A stretch of DNA of 52,736 bases from Spirochaetales bacterium. GTDB taxonomy: Bacteria; Spirochaetota; Spirochaetia; DSM-2461. The stretch spans positions 1-52,736 of the forward strand of contig JAQQAM010000085.1 in the NCBI GenBank assembly GCA_028532905.1, given 5' to 3'. Position 1 is the stretch's first letter. Each line of letters starts with the position of its first letter. The notes under the pieces are model-generated. The model saw nothing but the letters and a program-made list of their open reading frames with translations, did no database searches and was not told the DNA's origin. Below are positions 4,554 through 52,250 of this stretch, piece after piece. Made by a program: the position numbers and the translations under genes.

Positions 4554-4597
4554 ATCAAAACCCCTGTCCCAGAAAAGGGATGGGGGTGGAGGTCTTA

Positions 4598-5101
4598 ATG
4601 AATATGAAAAAAAAAGATGTATCCGAACTTTTTGTGACCTGGCTTTTTGCCTTACCTGTTTTTGTGGCTCTTTTTGAAATGCACACAAAATTTGTAGAAA
4701 AAGGGATGCACCAGGGAGGTGGTGAAACCAATGCTGCCATGTTCCCGAGAATGCTCAGCTGGCTTTTACTCTCCCTGATAATTGTCAGAACAGCGGATAT
4801 TCTCATAAAATCACGTAAAAAACATGAAAATCATGAACCTGTTATCCTATTTGAAAAGGCGGGAAGAAAACGCCTGGTTATGATTTCCGGCATACTTGTC
4901 CTTTACTTCTTCGGATTGGGAATTTTAGGTTATTATGCGGCCACTCCTCTGGCGCTGGCAGGATTCTTTCTGGTTTTGGGTCTGAAGAAGCCCATCATTC
5001 TGATTCCTCTCTGCCTGGGGGTCACCGTTGCAGTATGGTATGTGTTCGGCATCCTGCTCAAAGTAATCCTTCCCGTCGGCCGATTCGGTTTGTATATCTA
5101 G
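4598..5101 (+). CDS. tctB: TctB-family small membrane subunit of tripartite tricarboxylate transporter
   Basis: About 167 residues, with four hydrophobic segments: FVTWLFALPVFVALF, MLSWLLLSLIIVRTA, LVMISGILVLYFFGLGILGYYAATPLALAGFFLVLG and IILIPLCLGVTVAVWYVFGILL. This is the TctB (DUF1468) layout of the small integral subunit paired with TctA. The start at 4598 is chosen because GGAGG lies five bases upstream; an in-frame ATG at 4580 lacks a site. The end FGILLKVILPVGRFGLYI is typical for the family. Located between tctC and tctA, with tctA beginning 8 bases later. Confidence 0.88.
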   Translation: MNMKKKDVSELFVTWLFALPVFVALFEMHTKFVEKGMHQGGGETNAAMFPRMLSWLLLSLIIVRTADILIKSRKKHENHEPVILFEKAGRKRLVMISGILVLYFFGLGILGYYAATPLALAGFFLVLGLKKPIILIPLCLGVTVAVWYVFGILLKVILPVGRFGLYI

Positions 5102-5109
5102 GAGTCTAA

Positions 5110-6636
5110 ATGTTTACTGAAATTCTATCCGCCGGATTTCCGGCTTTCTTCGGAATCCAGCAGCTCCTATTTACAGGATTTGGCGTTTTAATGGGGATCA
5201 TCATCGGCATCCTGCCGGGGTTAGGCCCCCTCTTGGGATTAACTCTTCTGACACCACTGGCCATGAATATGAATCCCTTTACCGGGATGGGACTACTCAT
5301 CGGAATATTCGTTGGAGGGACCGCTGGAGGAGCTATCAGCGCCATACTTCTTAGGATTCCCGGAACCCCTATTGCAGCAGCTACGTTGCTGGACGGCTAT
5401 CCCCTGGCCTCAAAAGGCAAGGCGCCATTCGCGGTAACCCTGGCCATATCCACATCCGCTATCGGAGGAATCATCGGAGGAATTTATCTGATCTTCTTAT
5501 CTCCTCTCCTGGCACGTGTAGCCCTGAAGTTCTCTCCTCCAGAATATTTTGCCCTGGCTCTAACCGGTGTGGTCTGTATCGCTGTGGTCTCCAGGGAGTC
5601 AACAATAAAGGGGCTGATGGTTGGAAGCCTGGGACTTCTTCTGTCCACCATAGGGATGGATCCATTTATGAGCAATTTCCGGTTTACTTTCGGAACTATT
5701 GCCCTGGCAGGAGGGATCGGGATCGTCCCGATGGTCATCGGCCTATTCGCTATCAGCGAAATGTTAATTCAGGTGGAACAGGGGGATTTCGAAAGGTCTC
5801 CTCATCTGAAAGCATTCCTCCCTCCTCTGGCCGGCATCACCGAAAACTTCAAACAGCTCTTTAACCTTTTCCGGTCCAGTTCACTGGGAACATTCATCGG
5901 AGCCCTCCCGGGAGCTGGATCAGTGATAGCCAGTTTCGTTTCTTATGCTGTAGCAAAAAACAGCTCCCGGTACCCAGAAAAGTTCGGTACTGGAATCCCA
6001 GACGGAGTCATAGCCACTGAATCGGCAAATAATGCCTGCTGCGGAGGGACTCTCATTCCATCTCTCACACTGGCTCTCCCAGGCGATCCCTGCTCGGCCA
6101 TGCTGCTGGCGGCTCTTATGCTTCTGGGATATATTCCAGGACCCCGACTCTTCGTCCAGAGTCAGGATCTGGTAGGGGGCATTTTCCTGGCTTATATAAC
6201 TTCAAATATTTTTCTTTTGTTCCTGGGACTAGCCTTCCTTCCTCTCTTCGTCAAAGTGCTGAATGTAAAGAAAAAGTACCTGATTCCTGTGATTCTGATC
6301 CTCTGTGCTGTTGGTTCCTATGGTATGGAAACCTCAATAAACGATCTGTGGATAACTCTCATCTTCGGGATTCTGGCCTTTGGCTTGAGAAAGTTCGAGT
6401 ACCCTCTTGCCCCATTCGTGATCGCCAATGTCCTTGGCCCCATTATGGAAGAGAACTTCAGGCGATCTCTTATTATGTCCGGAGATGATCCTGCTATATT
6501 TTTCACGAGACCTATTTCAACAAGCATACTGGCGGCCAATTTTCTGCTCCTTGCTATTACCCTCATACCCTTCCGTAAAATACGGAGGAAGAGGACCCTA
6601 GAAAAAAACATCACAGAGGAAAACATAACATCATGA
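5110..6636 (+). CDS. tctA: TctA-family large permease of tripartite tricarboxylate transporter
   Basis: 508 residues with about a dozen hydrophobic segments. Family motifs are seen near the start (GVLMGIIIGILPGLGPLLG) and in the middle (LGTFIGALPGAGSVIASF), the two glycine/proline loops shared by all TctA proteins. ESANNACCGGTLIPSLTLALPG is also conserved. It is the transport channel of the secondary, ion-driven carboxylate importer. AGGAGTCTAA precedes the ATG. Its stop overlaps the sulfatase start by four bases (ATGA at 6633-6636), so the sulfatase is translationally coupled to the transporter. Confidence 0.95.
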   Translation: MFTEILSAGFPAFFGIQQLLFTGFGVLMGIIIGILPGLGPLLGLTLLTPLAMNMNPFTGMGLLIGIFVGGTAGGAISAILLRIPGTPIAAATLLDGYPLASKGKAPFAVTLAISTSAIGGIIGGIYLIFLSPLLARVALKFSPPEYFALALTGVVCIAVVSRESTIKGLMVGSLGLLLSTIGMDPFMSNFRFTFGTIALAGGIGIVPMVIGLFAISEMLIQVEQGDFERSPHLKAFLPPLAGITENFKQLFNLFRSSSLGTFIGALPGAGSVIASFVSYAVAKNSSRYPEKFGTGIPDGVIATESANNACCGGTLIPSLTLALPGDPCSAMLLAALMLLGYIPGPRLFVQSQDLVGGIFLAYITSNIFLLFLGLAFLPLFVKVLNVKKKYLIPVILILCAVGSYGMETSINDLWITLIFGILAFGLRKFEYPLAPFVIANVLGPIMEENFRRSLIMSGDDPAIFFTRPISTSILAANFLLLAITLIPFRKIRRKRTLEKNITEENITS

Positions 6637-8150
6637 AAACGATATTCCTTTTATTCGACTCACTGAACCGCAAAGCCCTCGGGCCCTACGATTCTTCTGT
6701 ACCAACACCGAATTTCGACCGATTGGCCCAAAAAAGTATTACTTTTACAAACCATTACGCTGGCAGCATGCCCTGTATGCCTGCCCGCCGGGATCAGCAG
6801 ACCGGCCGATACAATTTTTTCCACAGCGCCTGGGGCCCCATGGAACCCTATGATAATTCCCTACCTCGTCTACTGAGAGAAAGAAAAGGGGTTTATAGCC
6901 ATATCACTACCGACCATGCTCACTACTTCGAAGATGGCGGTGCTTTCTACTGCACCAATTTCAACACATGGGAGTTCCATAGAGGACAGGAATATGACCC
7001 CTGGATTCCGGAAATTAATCCCGATATGGAGATCTTGCGCAAACGCTATGATTCCAGGCACTATGATTTTTCTCACAGCTCCCGGAGCGAACACAAACTC
7101 CAGTTTGCCAAGAATAAAAATCACAGGATGAAAAAATCATCAGAATTTCCGATGGTTCGCTGTTTCGATTCAGCAATGGAATTTCTGGATATTAATAAAA
7201 ATGCAGAGAACTGGTTCCTTCAGCTGGAAACTTTCGACCCCCATGAACCTTTTGATATTCCGGAGGAATATCTTGACCGATATAATATAGACAAAACTAC
7301 GGTAATGAACTGGCCTAATTATGCACGGCCCGTAGAAAGCCCCGAAGAAATAGACCGAATCCGTCGAACTTATGCTGCTCTGGTGGCGTTCTGCGACGAT
7401 CAGCTCGGACGCCTTCTGGACAGAATGGATGCCGATAACATGTGGGACGATACATCATTAATCGTATCTACAGATCATGGGTTCCTCCTTTCTGAACATG
7501 ACTGGTGGTCTAAAGTCATCATGCCCAATTACCAGGAGATATCCCACATCCCCTTGTTTATTCATCATCCGAAGTACAAAATGAATGCCGGAACACAAAG
7601 AAATACTGTCACATCGGTCATTGACCTGATGCCAACCGTACTGGACTGGTATGACTGTGATATTCCGGAAGAAGTTAAAGGGCACTCCCTGACCGCACTG
7701 TTGGAAGAAGACAGGGATGAAGAGCGTGTTGTGAGCTGTGGAGTATTCGGAGGAACAGTTCTCATTACCGACGGCCGCTACGCATACCACCTTTGTCCAC
7801 AGCATCTGGACAGTACGAATTTATATGAATACAGGATACACCCCTGCCATATGAGGGGACAGTTTTCAATAAAGGAAATGCAGGATTCAGAACTATATAA
7901 TGGATTCAATTTTACCAAAGGAATGCCCTTGCTGAAGATAAAGGGACGAGATGATTCCCAACGGGTGCCCAATCATGATGCCCAGGGATTCCAGGATACT
8001 AAGACCAGGCTTTTCGACCTTTTCACCGATCCTACCGAAGAGAACCCCGTTTCCAATCCTCAGGTGGAAGCCCGTCTGAAATCTAGATTCCGACAAATTA
8101 TGGAAGACCATGACGCACCACAGGAGATGTTCGATAGATATGGAGTTTAA
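6633..8150 (+). CDS. cytoplasmic sulfatase (formylglycine type)
   Basis: 505 residues of the alkaline-phosphatase-like sulfatase fold. The metal site begins FLLFDSLNRKALGPYD. The signature Cys48-Met-Pro-Ala-Arg52 is the site where Cys is oxidised to formylglycine. LETFDPHEPFD, then LIVSTDHGFLLSEHDWWSK and HIPLFIHHP complete the active site. There is no signal peptide, so the enzyme acts in the cytoplasm and should cleave a sulfate ester after uptake. Coupling to tctA by a 4-bp overlap suggests the transporter brings in a sulfated carboxylate; this is inference. Activity needs a maturase (FGE or anSME), which is not in this window. Confidence 0.9.
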   Translation: MKTIFLLFDSLNRKALGPYDSSVPTPNFDRLAQKSITFTNHYAGSMPCMPARRDQQTGRYNFFHSAWGPMEPYDNSLPRLLRERKGVYSHITTDHAHYFEDGGAFYCTNFNTWEFHRGQEYDPWIPEINPDMEILRKRYDSRHYDFSHSSRSEHKLQFAKNKNHRMKKSSEFPMVRCFDSAMEFLDINKNAENWFLQLETFDPHEPFDIPEEYLDRYNIDKTTVMNWPNYARPVESPEEIDRIRRTYAALVAFCDDQLGRLLDRMDADNMWDDTSLIVSTDHGFLLSEHDWWSKVIMPNYQEISHIPLFIHHPKYKMNAGTQRNTVTSVIDLMPTVLDWYDCDIPEEVKGHSLTALLEEDRDEERVVSCGVFGGTVLITDGRYAYHLCPQHLDSTNLYEYRIHPCHMRGQFSIKEMQDSELYNGFNFTKGMPLLKIKGRDDSQRVPNHDAQGFQDTKTRLFDLFTDPTEENPVSNPQVEARLKSRFRQIMEDHDAPQEMFDRYGV

Positions 8151-8415: not shown

Positions 8416-9390
8416 TTATCCATTGAATTTTTCCACAGCATTACTAGGAGTAATCATTTCAGACTGCACTTCATAAACCTTTTCAGGGGTGAAATCGGGG
8501 TCTCTCATGATCTTATTACCAATTTCAACTGCTTTGTCTGTACACAGGGGATATGTAAATGTAGCGGCGAGAACTCCGTCTACGACTTTCTTGATTCCTC
8601 CGGCTTCTCCCTGAAGACCATCAACACCAACAAACAGGATATCCTTTTCCCGTCCCAGATCTCTCGCCGCAAGATAGCCGCCTACAGCCATGGGATCGTT
8701 ATGCCCATAAACAATATCAATATCAGGATGAGCCCGGAGGATTTCGGTCATTCTCACACGTGCATCACTCTGAAGCCAATTGCACACGGCCTCAGCTTCC
8801 TGAGTGATACCGCTATAAGTGTTCATGACATCCCAGGCTCCGTTAAATCTCTTCTGCTCTCCTTCCACACCAAGAAGGCCGCGCAGATCTACAATTTTCC
8901 CTTCTGGGGCTCCGTTTTTCACTTTAAGCATTTCAACCATATACTCACCGGCCAGTTTACCGATTGAGTAATTGTCACTCATAATCCAGGTTGTATAATT
9001 TTCAGCATCGACAATATCACGCTCGAGACAGATTACGGGGATTCCCGCTTTCTTTGCCTTACCCATAACCGCAGACAAGGGTCCCCTTTCATTGGGCGCC
9101 ACAATCAACAGATCGGGATTTTTCACAATAGCGGTCTCAATCTGAGAAATCTGACGGCTGTTGTCCTGCTGAGCATCCTGAATCTCAAATACGACATCGT
9201 CATACTGACTCCAGAGTGCCTTGAAAGAATCATTCTGAGCCGCTCTGTAGGGTTCGGCATTGTTACACTGGCTGAAAATTACCAGATAGCCGCTCTTTTC
9301 TGTGCTAACCTCCTTCTGACCTTCTCCAAAAACCGGCAAGGCCATAAAACACAGACACAGGATAAGAAAAACGGTAAGTCCTTTTTTCAT
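8416..9390 (-). CDS. sugar ABC importer, periplasmic binding protein (RbsB-like, CUT2)
   Basis: 324 residues. Signal peptide MKKGLTVFLILCLCFMALPVFG, mature start EGQKEVS. The type-I periplasmic binding fold of the RbsB family is plain: LVIFSQCNNAEPYRAAQNDSFKAL, then ETAIVKNPDLLIVAPNERGPLSAV and AGIPVICLERDI. KIVDLRGLLG, DIDIVYGHNDPMAVGGYLAARDLG and DILFVGVDGLQGEAGGIKKV complete it. It captures a sugar or related polyol for the permease and ATPase encoded upstream on the same strand. AAGGAGGAAAG before the ATG is a strong ribosome site, better than those of its partners, as expected for a protein needed in excess. The substrate cannot be read from sequence. Confidence 0.93.
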   Translation of the reverse strand: MKKGLTVFLILCLCFMALPVFGEGQKEVSTEKSGYLVIFSQCNNAEPYRAAQNDSFKALWSQYDDVVFEIQDAQQDNSRQISQIETAIVKNPDLLIVAPNERGPLSAVMGKAKKAGIPVICLERDIVDAENYTTWIMSDNYSIGKLAGEYMVEMLKVKNGAPEGKIVDLRGLLGVEGEQKRFNGAWDVMNTYSGITQEAEAVCNWLQSDARVRMTEILRAHPDIDIVYGHNDPMAVGGYLAARDLGREKDILFVGVDGLQGEAGGIKKVVDGVLAATFTYPLCTDKAVEIGNKIMRDPDFTPEKVYEVQSEMITPSNAVEKFNG

Positions 9391-9435: not shown

Positions 9436-10464
9436 TCATCCTTTAGATCTGGCTTTTCGGGGCTGCTGCAGCCAGACAGCAACAATTATGATAACGGCTT
9501 TGGCCATCATCTCAATGTTGATATCTACCCCTTTCAGGCGGAAGGTATTGGTCAGGATGCCCATAATGAAAACTCCGATAATCGTTCCCACAATACTTCC
9601 TTTCCCTCCAGTCATTTTGGTTCCCCCGATAACGACTGCGGCAATGGCATCCAATTCATAGGAGACTCCATCATTGGGGCTTCCCTGATGATTCTGGGCG
9701 GCATGGAGCACTCCCGCAACACCGGTCAGCAGACCTGAGAGAGCATATGTGAACAGAAGGGTTTTGGTAACCGGAATACCGGCGTAACGGGAGCCGATGC
9801 TGTTGTCCCCAATAGACTTGACCCTGAGACCGAAGACAGTCCTTCCTAAAATAATCGACATAATCACCGCGATGACAACAAAGGTGGTGATGACCACAGG
9901 TTTGGGAGATATTAGGTTGGCGAAAACAGCGGAAATGTCATCGCCGAATCCGATGTCGATATTAGCGTTGTTTGTAAGGAACCTGGCGAATCCCCGCAAA
10001 CCGATCATTCCAGCCAAAGTTATGATGAACGGCTGGATATTCAGTTTTGAAATCAACAGACCATAAAGAGCACCGAATCCTGTGGTCAGCATGAGTGGAA
10101 GAAAAATAGCCAAGAAAATGTGCAAAGGTTGTCCGATTGACGGATTCATCTGCGTCAGGATTTTGGCGCAGAGTGTGGCCGCCAGAGCCAAAAGACTTCC
10201 AACACTCAAATCGATGCCTGAAGTTAGAATGATAAAAGTCATACCAATGGCAATAATGCCGTTTTCGGATACCTGACGGAATATGTCAGACAGGTTTTCG
10301 GGCGTCAGAAAAAGAATGCGACCCGTTCCATGCTGCCTCGGACTGAGAATCACAGCAAGGAACAGTATAAGAACCAACCCTGTAAAGCTTTGAAATTTCT
10401 TCAGTGTTCCTGTGCTCTTTTTAAAAACTGCCGGTATGGATTGTACTCCTTCGTTTAACCTCAC
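9436..10464 (-). CDS. sugar ABC importer, permease (RbsC-like, CUT2)
   Basis: 342 residues with 8-10 hydrophobic segments. Family landmarks are IIAIGMTFIILTSGIDLSVGS and PFIITLAGMIGLRGFARFLTN. GSRYAGIPVTKTLLFTYALSGLLTGVAGVL and LDAIAAVVIGGTKMTGGKGSIVGT follow. It forms the inner-membrane channel of the importer. It starts with GTG at 10464, four bases inside the end of the ATPase gene (GTGA), with AGGAGC upstream, so it is translationally coupled. The first 25 residues are a hydrophilic cytoplasmic tail. Confidence 0.92.
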   Translation of the reverse strand: MRLNEGVQSIPAVFKKSTGTLKKFQSFTGLVLILFLAVILSPRQHGTGRILFLTPENLSDIFRQVSENGIIAIGMTFIILTSGIDLSVGSLLALAATLCAKILTQMNPSIGQPLHIFLAIFLPLMLTTGFGALYGLLISKLNIQPFIITLAGMIGLRGFARFLTNNANIDIGFGDDISAVFANLISPKPVVITTFVVIAVIMSIILGRTVFGLRVKSIGDNSIGSRYAGIPVTKTLLFTYALSGLLTGVAGVLHAAQNHQGSPNDGVSYELDAIAAVVIGGTKMTGGKGSIVGTIIGVFIMGILTNTFRLKGVDINIEMMAKAVIIIVAVWLQQPRKARSKG

Positions 10465-11984
10465 CTTGTTGCTCCTTTATTTTTAGATCCTGCGACAACC
10501 GACGCGGTCGCATAGGACATAATTTCCTGTTGTGTCGTCTCTTTGCATTTCAGAACGGCGGTTGCCCTTCCTTCCGACAGCACCATGATTCTATCACAGC
10601 AGCGGAGAAGCTCCGGAAGTTCCGAACTGACGAAGATCAAACCTTTCCCGCGGGAGGCGAGGGAAGTAATGATCTCATAGATGTCCTCTTTGGCTCCCAC
10701 ATCAACGCCGCGGGTCGGATCGTCCAGAAACAGGACTTCCGGGTCGACCATCAGCCATCTGGCGACGAGAACCTTCTGCTGATTACCACCACTCAGGGTG
10801 TCAACACAACTGTTACCGGAAGGAGTCTTAATCCTGATATTGTCGATCAGACTGTCCACGTTTTTTACAATTTTGGAATTATCCAGAAATCCCTTTCTGT
10901 TCAAATCATCGAGGGTCGACAGTATCATATTCTCCTGAACACTCATGCTCATCATTAACCCCTGGAGTTTGCGGTCTTCAGGAATGAAGCCGATGCCCTT
11001 TTTAATGGCGTCTCCGGGATTATTTAGTTCCAGCTCCCCATCCTCGGTTCTGATACTTCCGGACCGCACCGGCTCCAGGCCAAAAAGAGCTTCTCCCAGT
11101 TCAGTACGTCCAGCGCCCACAAGCCCTGCAACTCCCAGTACTTCTCCCTTGTGAAGGTCAAAAGAGACATCCTTCATTTTAGGGGTAATCAGATTCCTGA
11201 CAGACAAGCATACATCACCGGTTGCCCAGCTGCGCTGTTTCTCCTTTCCGGAAACAGTACGACCGACCATCATTTCAATAATGTCAGTGGGATCTGTTTC
11301 GTCTGCGGACTTTTTACCGATGAACTCTCCATCTCTCATGACAGCAATTTCATCGGCTATTTGAAAAATTTCATTCATTTTATGAGACACGTAAATGATC
11401 GTGACATTATCTTTCTTCAGATCTCTGATGAGAGAGAAAAGGTTATCCACTGCATCATCCGTTAAGGAACTGGTCGGCTCATCCATAATAATGAGCCGGC
11501 AATTCATGCTGAGAATTCTGGCGATGACCACCAGCTGAATTTGAGCCATAGAGAGTTCTTCCATGGGCTTTCCCGGATTAACATCCAGCCGTACTTTCTC
11601 AAGCCAGGGCTTCACTTCTTCATTAATATTGTTGCTGTTTAGAAATCCCTTCTCCAGATGGGCGAAGGACATATTGTTCAAAATGATGTTCTGGGCAACT
11701 GATAAACTGGGAAAAACATCCAGTTCCTGCAGAACCAGTCCAATTCCCTTCTTCTGAGCCTCCAGTGGATTATCAAAAACAAGCTTTTCACCGTTAAGCC
11801 TGATTTCTCCACTGTCCAGAGCATAAATACCGGCGATCATCTTACCCAAAGTACTCTTTCCGGCTCCGTTCTCTCCCATTAAGGCACAAACTTTCCCTTC
11901 ATTAAATCGCAGACTTACATCTTTTACTGCATGAATGCCTCCGAAATGCTTGTTAACATTTTTCAGGACTAAGATTTCATCCAT
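10461..11984 (-). CDS. sugar ABC importer, double ATPase (RbsA-like, CUT2)
   Basis: About 507 residues with two ABC ATPase halves, as in RbsA/MglA. The first half has Walker A GENGAGKST, the modified signature LSMAQIQ and Walker B LIIMDEPTSSLT. The second half has a degenerate Walker A (GLVGAGRTE), the full signature LSGGNQQK and LFLDDPTRGVDVGAK; this asymmetry is normal for CUT2. It energises import through the next gene. The ATG at 11984 is preferred because AAAGGA precedes it; the ATG at 11999 lies closer to the predicted start of transcription and has no site. First gene of the operon, driven by the sigma-54 promoter at 12016-12035. Confidence 0.93.
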   Translation of the reverse strand: MDEILVLKNVNKHFGGIHAVKDVSLRFNEGKVCALMGENGAGKSTLGKMIAGIYALDSGEIRLNGEKLVFDNPLEAQKKGIGLVLQELDVFPSLSVAQNIILNNMSFAHLEKGFLNSNNINEEVKPWLEKVRLDVNPGKPMEELSMAQIQLVVIARILSMNCRLIIMDEPTSSLTDDAVDNLFSLIRDLKKDNVTIIYVSHKMNEIFQIADEIAVMRDGEFIGKKSADETDPTDIIEMMVGRTVSGKEKQRSWATGDVCLSVRNLITPKMKDVSFDLHKGEVLGVAGLVGAGRTELGEALFGLEPVRSGSIRTEDGELELNNPGDAIKKGIGFIPEDRKLQGLMMSMSVQENMILSTLDDLNRKGFLDNSKIVKNVDSLIDNIRIKTPSGNSCVDTLSGGNQQKVLVARWLMVDPEVLFLDDPTRGVDVGAKEDIYEIITSLASRGKGLIFVSSELPELLRCCDRIMVLSEGRATAVLKCKETTQQEIMSYATASVVAGSKNKGATR

Positions 11985-12015
11985 TCCTGTTCCTTTCATT
12001 TGATTTTATCCAATA

Positions 12016-12035
12016 CAAAGCATGTTCCATGCCAA
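12016..12035 (-). promoter_or_regulatory. sigma-54 (-24/-12) promoter of the CUT2 importer operon
   Basis: On the minus strand TTGGCATGGAACATGCTTTG carries the invariant GG (12033-12032) and GC (12021-12020) with exactly 10 bases between them. It matches TGGCAC-N5-TTGCA well. Transcription should start near 12008, about 24 bases before the ATPase ATG. A sigma-54 activator (12135-13490) is encoded divergently next door. Confidence 0.8.
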
Positions 12036-12058
12036 CCCTGCTTCTGTTGAGGAAGAAG

Positions 12059-12089
12059 ATTTCTAATAGCTCTGTACTCAAGTAGAAAT
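12059..12089. promoter_or_regulatory. 31-bp inverted repeat, candidate enhancer site for the sigma-54 activator
   Basis: ATTTCTA at 12059-12065 is repeated inverted as TAGAAAT at 12083-12089 (perfect 7-bp arms, 17-bp centre). It lies about 50-80 bp upstream of the sigma-54 start, where NtrC-type enhancer sites are often found. Confidence 0.45.
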
Positions 12090-12098
12090 AAAAAATAC

Positions 12099-12126
12099 TT
12101 TACAGATCCCAAAATCAGTGTATAAA
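12099..12126 (+). promoter_or_regulatory. sigma-70-type promoter of the response-regulator/kinase operon
   Basis: TTTACA (12099-12104), 16 bases, TATAAA (12121-12126): each box has five of six consensus bases. The start of transcription would fall at about 12133, within a few bases of the ATG at 12135, so the message may be leaderless. The 10-bp palindrome AGACATGTCT (12131-12140) covers both the start of transcription and the start codon. Confidence 0.65.
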
Positions 12127-12134
12127 TTTTAGAC

Positions 12135-13490
12135 ATGTCTACCCACAAGATGTCTAATAAATCGACAACCCCTGCAACAATACTCATTGTCGATGATAAA
12201 GAAAAAATTAGAACGAGCCTCTCTCTGTCTTTGAAAAACAGAGGATATTACCCTCTTTCTGCAGCCTCCATCGAGGAAGGCTGGGAAAAAATTATCTTAG
12301 AATCCGTCGATCTGGCTCTTATCGACATTAGACTGGGAGATGAGAATGGACTGGATCTCCTGCGAAAGATACAAACACTGGAATCTCCCATACCAGTACT
12401 GATCTTTACCGGACACGCGACCATAGAATCAGCCATTGAAGCGATCAAGCTTGGAGCTTTTAATTATCTGCAGAAACCGGTAAAGGTAGATCAGTTAGCT
12501 CCTATGATCGGCTCTGCTCTCAAACTCAGCAAACTGGAGCAGGAAAATAAAGAGTTACTCATGCAAATCCGGAAAAATGATGAACTCCTGATCGAAGGGG
12601 AAGTCCTTGAGAATTTATTTCGAAAAACTGTAAAGCTTGCCAAATCGGAATTACCTATACTGATCCAGGGAGAAAGCGGAACCGGTAAAGAGATGTTTGC
12701 CGAGCTGATACATAACAACTCATCCCGTAAAGACTGCCCACTTATTAAAATAAACTGCGCTGCTCTTCCTGAATCCCTCCTTGACGACGAACTGTTCGGA
12801 CACGAAAAAGGGGCATTTACCGGAGCAGACAAACAGTTCCGGGGTGTTTTCGAGAGAGCCCATGGGGGAACCTTATTCCTTGATGAGCTGGGGGATATGT
12901 CCCTGCAGACTCAGGCTAAAATACTGCGGGCAATTCAAAACCGTGAGATAAAACGACTTGGAGGAAACAGTGAGCTGGAAGTGGATGTCCGCTTTATAGC
13001 CGCTACGAACAAAGACCTGGATACAATGATGGCTGAGAAAATTTTCCGGGAGGATCTTTACTACAGACTCAGCACTGCCGTTATAACGATTCCTCCTTTG
13101 AGAGAAAGAAAGGAAACAATACTCCAGCTAACCGAACACTTCTTAAACCAATGTTCCGGAGACTCTATACGCAAGCAGACGCTCTCCCCCGATGTGAGTG
13201 ATTTCCTGGTGAGTTACGACTGGCCGGGCAACGTGCGAGAACTGAAAAGCACCGTCCAATACGCAAGTGCTGTAGCCTCTTCTCCGATGATATCTCTGGA
13301 TGATCTGCCCCGTAAACTGACCGACGCAATCCGTCCACGTACCAGCGGCAAGCTCCATCAGGAAATGGAGGAAGACCTGATAAAACGGGTAATGAAAGAA
13401 TGCGGCAATAACAAAAAAAGGACTGCCGAGATTCTGGGAATTAGCCGGGCGACATTATATAACAAAATAAAGGATTATAACCTGCCATGA
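12135..13490 (+). CDS. NtrC-type sigma-54-dependent response regulator
   Basis: 451 residues in three domains. The receiver (about 14-130) has phospho-acceptor Asp64 in LALIDIRL, acidic pocket DD at 20-21 and Lys114. The AAA+ domain has Walker A GESGTGKE (179-186), the sigma-54 contact loop GAFTGA (226-231), Walker B GGTLFLDELGDM and sensor II region YDWPGNVREL. The C-terminal Fis-type HTH is NKKRTAEILGISRATLYNKIKDY. It should activate the divergent importer promoter at 12016-12035. No ribosome site precedes the ATG, and the promoter would start transcription almost at that ATG. The gene overlaps the kinase gene by four bases (ATGA), so the pair is co-translated. Confidence 0.95.
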   Translation: MSTHKMSNKSTTPATILIVDDKEKIRTSLSLSLKNRGYYPLSAASIEEGWEKIILESVDLALIDIRLGDENGLDLLRKIQTLESPIPVLIFTGHATIESAIEAIKLGAFNYLQKPVKVDQLAPMIGSALKLSKLEQENKELLMQIRKNDELLIEGEVLENLFRKTVKLAKSELPILIQGESGTGKEMFAELIHNNSSRKDCPLIKINCAALPESLLDDELFGHEKGAFTGADKQFRGVFERAHGGTLFLDELGDMSLQTQAKILRAIQNREIKRLGGNSELEVDVRFIAATNKDLDTMMAEKIFREDLYYRLSTAVITIPPLRERKETILQLTEHFLNQCSGDSIRKQTLSPDVSDFLVSYDWPGNVRELKSTVQYASAVASSPMISLDDLPRKLTDAIRPRTSGKLHQEMEEDLIKRVMKECGNNKKRTAEILGISRATLYNKIKDYNLP

Positions 13491-15316
13491 CACGACCCGC
13501 CCTGATTACGTTAAAAGATGTGTCATATTCCTACGGTTCTGTAAAAGCCATAGAAGAGATAAATATTGAAATAACCCAAGGCGAGATACATGCCCTGATC
13601 GGTGAGCATGGCGCTGGTAAATCCTCTCTGGCACATATTCTAAGTGGATTTATTCAACCCAAAGGCTGTCTGTACTGGAAAGGCTCAGACTTAGGGGTCT
13701 ACAACTCAAAAATAGCCCGGAATCTGGGAATCTCCTACGTAACTCAGGGAACAGAACTTTTCGATTACCAATCAGTTGCCATGAACCTTTTCAACAACAA
13801 CCCGGGCGTCTTCAGTCGCTTTTTCTTCAATACTGCAAAAATTAATAAAAGAGCCGAAGAGTATCTGGAAAGGATAGGAAGCGATATCAATCCCCGTTCA
13901 CTGGTTGGTGAACTCTCAAAGCCCCAAAGGGTTTTTGTTGATATTCTGAGGCATATCTACAGAAACCCGAAGCTACTCATTTTGGACGAAGCGATTGAAA
14001 AACTAACTGCCGTAGACCTTTCCCGGGTTATGAAAATAATCAGGGAGCTGCGTAACAACGGTAGTACTATCGTATTCATTACGCACCGTATCGATGATGT
14101 TTACGAATTTGCAGATAGAGTCACCATACTAAGAAAAGGAAGAATAATAGTCACAGAAGCTGTCGAAAATATTGATAAGATAAACCTCATCAAGCTTGCC
14201 TACACTCAGATTACCCAAAGCAAGTCAATGATGAATGTGGATAAAGAATTTTATCATCTTCTCAAATATAATGAGGCCATTCTTGAGTTTCTTCCCATTG
14301 CCTTGTTTGTTGTCAACAGAGAGGAGAAGATCAAACTTATTAATACTTACGGCGAAAACTTCTTCGGCAGAAAAAAAGAAGAACTGCTTAACGAAGATTT
14401 TAATAAGATACTGGGACCGGAAAACAACGTACTGCTTGAGAAGATCCGCAGCCTCCTGAAAAAAAGGAAATGGGAGAATCTCTACCAGGTCCAAGTGAAA
14501 ATTGAACAGAAGATAATATGCGGCAATATTGTCGTTTACCCGATCCATGACGGGAATTATTACATGGGCAGCATCATCATTATTGATGACATGACCGAAC
14601 AGGAGGAATTAAGAAAAAAAATCCAGTTATCCGAGAAACTGGCATCCGTCGGTCTACTGGCTGCTGGGGTCGCCCATGAAATAAACAATCCTCTGGAAAT
14701 CATCAACAATTACCTGGATGTCCTCAAAGGATTGCAATCTTCGGACGAAGCTGTCTCCTTCATCAGATATATGGAGGAAGAAATGGATTCCATTGAGATG
14801 ATAATTGGAAACCTGATAACGTTTTCCGAGAAAAATCAATACGAAGACGAAGAACTAAATCTGCCTGATCTGCTCAGCCAGATGCTGAAACTTGTACAAT
14901 TTAATGCGCAGAAAAGGAATATTTCCATCAGTGCAGATTTCCCTGAAGAAGCTATCCGCATTAAGGCAAACAAAACAAAAATCAAGCAGGTTATTCTCAA
15001 CATTATCAGAAATGCATTCGATTCAATGACTGAAGGCGGAACGCTCACCGCAACAATCCGGACAACAGGAACGGATTCAGTAATTATTGAGTTTACCGAC
15101 ACTGGCACCGGGCTGCATGAAAAAGATATTAACAGTGTCATGCTACCCTTTTTTACAACAAAAGACGGTAATGAAGAAAACATGGGCCTCGGCTTATCCA
15201 TCGTATACGGTATTTTGAAAAGCTATAACGGTATGCTGGAGATAAAAAACCGGCAGGACAGAAGAGGTTGTATCGTAAGAATATCTCTACCTATGCTTTC
15301 AGCAAGAAATTCATGA
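13487..15316 (+). CDS. soluble histidine kinase with an N-terminal sugar-importer ABC ATPase domain (ABC-PAS-HisKA-HATPase fusion)
   Basis: 609 residues, no membrane segment. Residues 5-235 are an ABC ATPase like the N-half of RbsA. They show Walker A GEHGAGKSS (39-47), a Q-loop SYVTQG and an altered signature LSKPQR (143-148). Walker B is LLILDEAIEKLT (163-174) and the H-loop is FITHR (His200). The Walker lysine, the Walker B glutamate and His200 are kept; the usual DEPT is DEAI. Residues 260-370 look like a PAS domain. The kinase follows: GVAHEINNPLE with phospho-acceptor His397, N-box Asn509, DTGTG (538-542) and GLGL (567-570), of the NtrB type. It is coupled to the NtrC-type regulator and divergent from an RbsA-type importer. 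Inference: the ABC domain reads the state of the importer or its permease and sets kinase activity. I know no characterised protein of this layout. Confidence 0.93.
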   Translation: MTRPALITLKDVSYSYGSVKAIEEINIEITQGEIHALIGEHGAGKSSLAHILSGFIQPKGCLYWKGSDLGVYNSKIARNLGISYVTQGTELFDYQSVAMNLFNNNPGVFSRFFFNTAKINKRAEEYLERIGSDINPRSLVGELSKPQRVFVDILRHIYRNPKLLILDEAIEKLTAVDLSRVMKIIRELRNNGSTIVFITHRIDDVYEFADRVTILRKGRIIVTEAVENIDKINLIKLAYTQITQSKSMMNVDKEFYHLLKYNEAILEFLPIALFVVNREEKIKLINTYGENFFGRKKEELLNEDFNKILGPENNVLLEKIRSLLKKRKWENLYQVQVKIEQKIICGNIVVYPIHDGNYYMGSIIIIDDMTEQEELRKKIQLSEKLASVGLLAAGVAHEINNPLEIINNYLDVLKGLQSSDEAVSFIRYMEEEMDSIEMIIGNLITFSEKNQYEDEELNLPDLLSQMLKLVQFNAQKRNISISADFPEEAIRIKANKTKIKQVILNIIRNAFDSMTEGGTLTATIRTTGTDSVIIEFTDTGTGLHEKDINSVMLPFFTTKDGNEENMGLGLSIVYGILKSYNGMLEIKNRQDRRGCIVRISLPMLSARNS

Positions 15317-52233: not shown

Positions 52234-52250
52234 TTGGCACGGCCTTTGCA
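52234..52250 (+). promoter_or_regulatory. sigma-54 (-24/-12) promoter
   Basis: TTGGCACGGCCTTTGCA matches TTGGCAC-N5-TTGCA at every consensus base. GG (52236-52237) and GC (52248-52249) are 10 bases apart. Transcription should start near 52261, 35 bases before the ATG at 52296. Confidence 0.9.

Follow-up and report, generated by a model that had tools for sequence, protein, structure and literature searches.

The NtrB/NtrC and AtoS/AtoC two-component systems have a common response regulator architecture that combines a receiver, an AAA+ and an HTH_8 domain. At glnA, the sites of NtrC are tandem 17-bp dyads placed about three helical turns apart. In the Bce type of flux sensor, the kinase BceS has two transmembrane helices and the transporter BceAB is described as exporting peptides. 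Passages of one paper describe KsAmt5 as a histidine kinase to which a transporter-derived part is fused as a sensor (PMC8534201).

The locus analyzed here lies in a window of 52,736 nucleotides (the whole stretch of Spirochaetales DNA under study). Its regulator has the receiver, AAA+ and HTH_8 architecture of NtrC and AtoC, the core of its kinase is closest to AtoS, and its two candidate regulator sites, D1 and D2, are tandem dyads with a spacing similar to that of the NtrC sites. Unlike NtrB and AtoS, however, the kinase carries an ABC ATPase domain at its N-terminal end; the target would be the adjoining sugar-type ABC importer, and the sites overlap the regulator's own start. The features that identify a Bce-type flux sensor, a kinase with two transmembrane helices and a BceAB-type transporter, were not found at this locus. 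The kinase, which carries an importer-like ATPase domain, looks soluble, with no clear membrane span in a crude hydropathy profile (maximum of 1.49); the transporter genes are those of a sugar-type importer, and the output is of the sigma-54 type. KsAmt5 resembles this locus in the transporter-derived sensor part carried by a histidine kinase (PMC8534201). It differs in that its fused part is a membrane transporter domain, whereas the locus kinase has taken up no more of an ABC importer than the ATPase half. The front of the kinase resembles the N-half of the CUT2 ATPases RbsA, MglA and YtfR, but their second ABC half is absent, with PAS-HisKA-HATPase in its place.

Coordinates of the genes, predicted promoters and candidate sites at the locus
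Feature	Position	Strand	Basis or remark
Importer substrate-binding protein (Peripla_BP_4, RbsB/YtfQ type)	8416..9390	minus	domain/family matches
Importer permease (RbsC type, BPD_transp_2)	9436..10464	minus	domain/family matches
Importer ATPase (RbsA/MglA type)	10461..11999	minus	domain/family matches
Predicted sigma-54 (-24/-12) promoter of the importer operon, TTGGCATGGAACATGCT	12019..12035	minus	motif and conservation
Inverted repeat ATTTCTA-N17-TAGAAAT	12059..12089		perfect 7-bp arms
Predicted sigma-70-type promoter of the regulator-kinase operon (TTTACA-N16-TATAAA)	12099..12126	plus	score 10.5 of 12.5
Dyad D1, TGTATAAATTTTAGACA, proposed regulator site over the -10 box of the regulator-kinase promoter	12119..12135
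Dyad D2, TGTCTAATAAATCGACA, second proposed regulator site	12151..12167		32 bp from D1
NtrC-type response regulator (receiver, sigma-54 AAA+, HTH_8), from predicted start codon	12135..13490	plus	domain matches
Fused sensor kinase, 609 aa: CUT2-type ABC ATPase (about 1-240), PAS, HisKA, HATPase	13487..15316	plus

The regulator carries the receiver, Sigma54_activat and HTH_8 domains in this order. Its best NCBIfam matches are AtoC and NtrC, both below their cut-offs, and with a score of 393 against the curated TIGR01818 cut-off of 558.6 it is not called an NtrC orthologue (NR-I). The fused kinase gene overlaps the regulator gene by 4 bases. On the other side, the start codon of the importer ATPase is likely at 11984, because the orthologue in locus L047 starts with MDEIL. 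Next to the end of the importer operon (window positions 4580-8150) there are transporter-like genes, which from their length and sequence are likely of the TctB/TctA type, followed by a sulfatase-like gene.

A search with the kinase only gave a match at E 1e-40 or better in 27 of 61 genomes (the genome of the window included and partial matches counted), and within the class 30 of 394 genomes matched at E 1e-110; a search of plasmid DNA returned nothing. Sixty-five sequences (the window and L047-L110) were examined, of which 57 have the regulator directly before the kinase; the other eight (L062, L063, L064, L067, L071, L082, L099, L108) did not pass the rules for a full regulator and a kinase start. 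After removal of the duplicates L105, whose sequence equals that of L055 (Thalassospirochaeta, genome G048), and L106, which equals L096, 55 modules remained, 44 divergent and 11 not. The matches include named spirochaete records, L105 among them, which assign the window to the spirochaetes. The divergent modules were selected by kinase homology alone; the modules are related and some loci are close relatives, so that the counts below do not represent independent events. The closest orthologues of the window are L047 and L048 (kinase identity of 59 and 55%), the same layout is found in L107 and L109, titled KSB3 and Acidobacteria, respectively, and the genome of the window encodes several fused-kinase paralogues (C196, C57, C175, C128), each adjoining an importer and a regulator. 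A single in-frame stop interrupts the matched kinase stretch in each of L054 (TAG), L093 (TAG) and G004:C16, which is L064 (TAA).

The explanation that we favor, and that we regard as probable when taken as a whole, is a relay from the kinase to the regulator at D1 and D2 and on to the sigma-54 promoter of the importer, with autorepression and with the state of the importer as the signal. The fused kinase would phosphorylate the NtrC-type regulator. The active regulator would then bind D1 and D2 where its own gene begins, the 32-bp spacing placing both on one side of the helix, and loop over approximately 94-126 bp to sigma-54 RNA polymerase at the importer promoter, firing the divergent operon for ATPase, permease and binding protein. 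Binding to D1 over the -10 box would also hold down production of the regulator. What the kinase senses is probably the importer's own state: the kinase ABC domain could dock with either the permease or the importer ATPase, because it resembles the first half of this ATPase and has Walker A and B motifs without the signature motif.

The surprising part of the locus is the fused kinase. In an alignment with YtfR, its residues 7-246 correspond to positions 2-241, and the N-halves of other sugar-importer ATPases match in a similar way. Across 55 kinases, the ABC domain displays a Walker A motif in 53 and LSGG in none; among 56 importer ATPases, the N-half has Walker A in 54 and LSGG in none, and the C-half carries LSGG[NT]QQ in all 56. 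With a Walker A motif and no LSGGQ signature in the same domain, the kinase does not have the makeup of a self-sufficient ABC ATPase homodimer; since Walker A is kept and LSGG is absent, its ABC domain could bind ATP, and a complete site would require a partner. The HisKA domain with its H-box and the HATPase_c domain place the protein among HisKA-type sensor histidine kinases, and it is apparently a soluble fusion of ABC ATPase, PAS and histidine kinase parts. A structure model (7 sequences, mean pLDDT of 75, pTM of 0.44) is good for the ABC domain and poor for the arrangement of domains. The 50 PDB matches listed include ABC proteins as well as kinases or photoreceptors, and none of the chains is described as combining the two. 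Among the open-licence PMC papers listed by literature searches, no description of this fusion was found.

The likeness of the kinase to importer ATPases suggests that sensing is coupled to transport. We tentatively put forward a specific version, in which a captured N-half of a CUT2 ATPase, fused to the kinase and docked on its own importer, reports import to the NtrC-type regulator that switches on the sigma-54 promoter of the importer. In the docked state, the ATP site of the kinase ABC domain could be completed only with the C-half of the importer ATPase; alternatively, the domain could sit on the permease as an additional ATPase. The idea that a kinase monitors an ABC importer by means of a captured ATPase half can be tested directly. 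It is also possible, if somewhat doubtful, that the kinase responds through its PAS and ABC domains to a cytoplasmic small molecule or to the ATP level and makes no contact with the importer, as would suit an apparently soluble protein with a PAS domain; yet its ABC domain belongs to the importer-ATPase class, the kinase is kept beside an importer of this very class, and the motif pattern of the N-half is preserved.

The signal relay that we favor places the regulator at D1 and D2, 17-bp TGT-N11-ACA dyads that overlap the regulator start and lie 30-80 bp farther from the importer promoter than the inverted repeat. A scan made without guidance, which looked for two 17-bp dyads separated by 28-35 bp and was evaluated against 300 shuffles, settled on the same place in the window, L047 and L048 (-61, -60 and -61 from the receiver start, with a spacing of 32, 31 and 32 bp, respectively) with a p of 0.003 for each, which is the floor for 300 shuffles; p was 0.05 or lower in only 8 of the 44 divergent modules. 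The TGT-N11-ACA motif, which was chosen after the dyads of these three loci had been seen, was searched for in 160 bp per module and found in 29 of 55 (shuffle mean of 3.6, maximum of 9). The searched 160 bp of the other 26 modules do not contain it, and several of these modules carry other palindromes, as judged by eye. Pairs with a spacing of 31-34 bp are present in 14 of 55 modules (mean of 0.007 and maximum of 1 in 300 shuffles), L052 alone has pairs at other spacings, and dyads with other gap lengths were found in 0-2 modules. In the 12 divergent modules that have both elements, the distance from the -24 element to the center of D1 is 94-188 bp; it is 94 bp in the window and exceeds 128 bp only in L104. 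D2 overlaps the coding start in the window, L047 and L048, and precedes the start codon in L080, L087 and L089. Genome-wide, the single-dyad pattern with 1 mismatch is not enriched (51+60 versus 60+49 for the control) and single dyads therefore do not define a regulon; exact single dyads occupy three places in the genome, namely D1, a place beside the paralogous module of C175, and C11:20539, which is not beside a paralogous module. Overall, D1 and D2 are likely the landing sites, or enhancer, of the regulator.

A recognition helix with the sequence SRATLYNK is found in four modules (the window, L047, L048, L104), and the more specific motif TGTC-N9-GACA occurs at -28/-29 only in these four; L101 and L102 carry it at -82/-83. 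The association of helix and motif has a Fisher p of 4e-5 with L101 and L102 counted, a value that is uncorrected for relatedness and derives from a post hoc grouping. Coding does not explain the motif, because the L104 copy is in another codon phase. With candidate sites, promoter and recognition helix now named, binding specificity becomes testable. By eye, other palindromes (of the TGCAC, TGGGAA and GGTAA types) and other helices are seen before the regulator in several modules (L073, L076, L078, L079, L077, L083, L072, L081, L084).

D1 also bears on the expression of the regulator itself. The sigma-70-type promoter predicted in the window has a p of 0.055 for the region alone, and 16 of the 55 promoter calls across the modules reach p 0.05. 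The best -10 box in the window begins 2 bp inside D1, and a -10 box that begins 2-4 bp into a TGT-N11-ACA dyad is found in 13 of 55 modules, an overlap that is partly built in: TGTATAAT contains a -10 box, and the left half of D1 is in part the box itself. Because the -10 box of the promoter predicted for the regulator lies under D1, we infer that D1 would serve both autoregulation and activation of the importer. The position of D1 would equally suit D1 and D2 being purely autoregulatory, with another enhancer-binding protein activating the importer from unmarked sites, and sigma-54 activators can work from elsewhere; we consider this unlikely, given that the 44 divergent modules keep regulator, kinase and importer in synteny, and given the non-divergent modules. 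Seven of these 11 have a sigma-54 site scoring at least 7 (see below) just past the kinase, six of the seven with an importer behind it (in L065 none was found within the limit of the script), and TGT-N11-ACA is present within 260 bp upstream of the relocated promoter in five of the seven.

An earlier note on this DNA had pointed to a different operator, the inverted repeat ATTTCTA-N17-TAGAAAT. The repeat is there as described, with perfect arms and about 50-80 bp upstream of the expected importer start, and it is the only exact copy in the genome. That the regulator binds this repeat and activates the sigma-54 promoter from there is nevertheless very improbable, for all its perfect 7-bp arms, uniqueness and suitable position. 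When the 135-bp region was shuffled 500 times, 113 of the shuffles held an equal or better perfect repeat (arms of at least 7, gap of up to 25). At up to 2 mismatches and with a spacer of 14-20, the repeat is in none of the 54 other modules, that is, in 1 of 55 overall, and in L047 and L048 it is absent even at 3 mismatches. The genome scan for further copies near sigma-54 promoters that the note had proposed came back empty, in that none of the 16 other TTGGCAYN6TGCW sites that were examined has the repeat upstream, and the pattern with up to 2 mismatches gave 25 sites genome-wide versus 23 for the control. We rejected the repeat as an operator; it is probably a chance occurrence. Of the physical link between regulator and importer that had been drawn from this region, the conserved sigma-54 promoter and a likely role of the adjacent NtrC-type activator are retained, and the repeat is not.

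The sigma-54 promoter itself, also proposed in the earlier note, is borne out. TTGGCATGGAACATGCTTTG occupies positions 12035-12016 of the minus strand, with the GG at 12033-12032 and the GC ten bases away at 12021-12020. The sigma-54 promoter consensus is YTGGCACGN4TTGCW, and besides the fixed GG and GC the site matches it at 7 of 9 scored positions; from the GC, transcription of the importer is expected to start at about 12009. In each module, the best importer-strand site in the 450 bp that precede the receiver domain was scored in the same way, GG and GC being required and nine more positions counted. The score is at least 6 in 39, at least 7 in 34 and at least 8 in 12 of the 44 divergent modules, and none of the 44 reaches 6 on the regulator strand or inside the kinase gene. 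In 100 shuffles, the mean count was 1.95 (maximum of 7) at a score of 6 and 0.4 (maximum of 2) at a score of 7. Four of the five modules that fail the strict test have TTGGCAC and a -12 GT that replaces the GC, and L090 has neither form. Conservation upstream of orthologous importers, on which both elements of the note were to be judged, thus holds for the promoter (43 of 44 once the -12 GT is allowed) and fails for the repeat. The genome encodes rpoN (E 4e-57) and contains 18 TTGGCAYN6TGCW sites versus 0 for the reversed control. The genes behind these sites include an ammonium transporter and a PspA family protein, which are classical sigma-54 targets.

Tested across homologues and with 18 versus 0 genomic sites, the promoter predicted before the importer is far beyond chance and we take it to be real; that the -24/-12 match, with its two departures from the consensus, is fortuitous is hardly credible when 34 of 44 modules score at least 7 and shuffles give a mean of 0.4 and a maximum of 2. 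The adjacent NtrC-type regulator is likely the activator of this promoter. If the relay through D1 and D2 is right, many spirochaetes, together with at least one KSB3-titled and one Acidobacteria-titled assembly, reuse one wiring plan, and importer, sensor and regulator evolve as one unit.

A second strong sigma-54-like site, TTGGCACGGCCTTTGCA, is located at window positions 52234-52250 of the plus strand, 45 bp upstream of a gene that encodes a family 3 binding protein and extends past the edge of the window.
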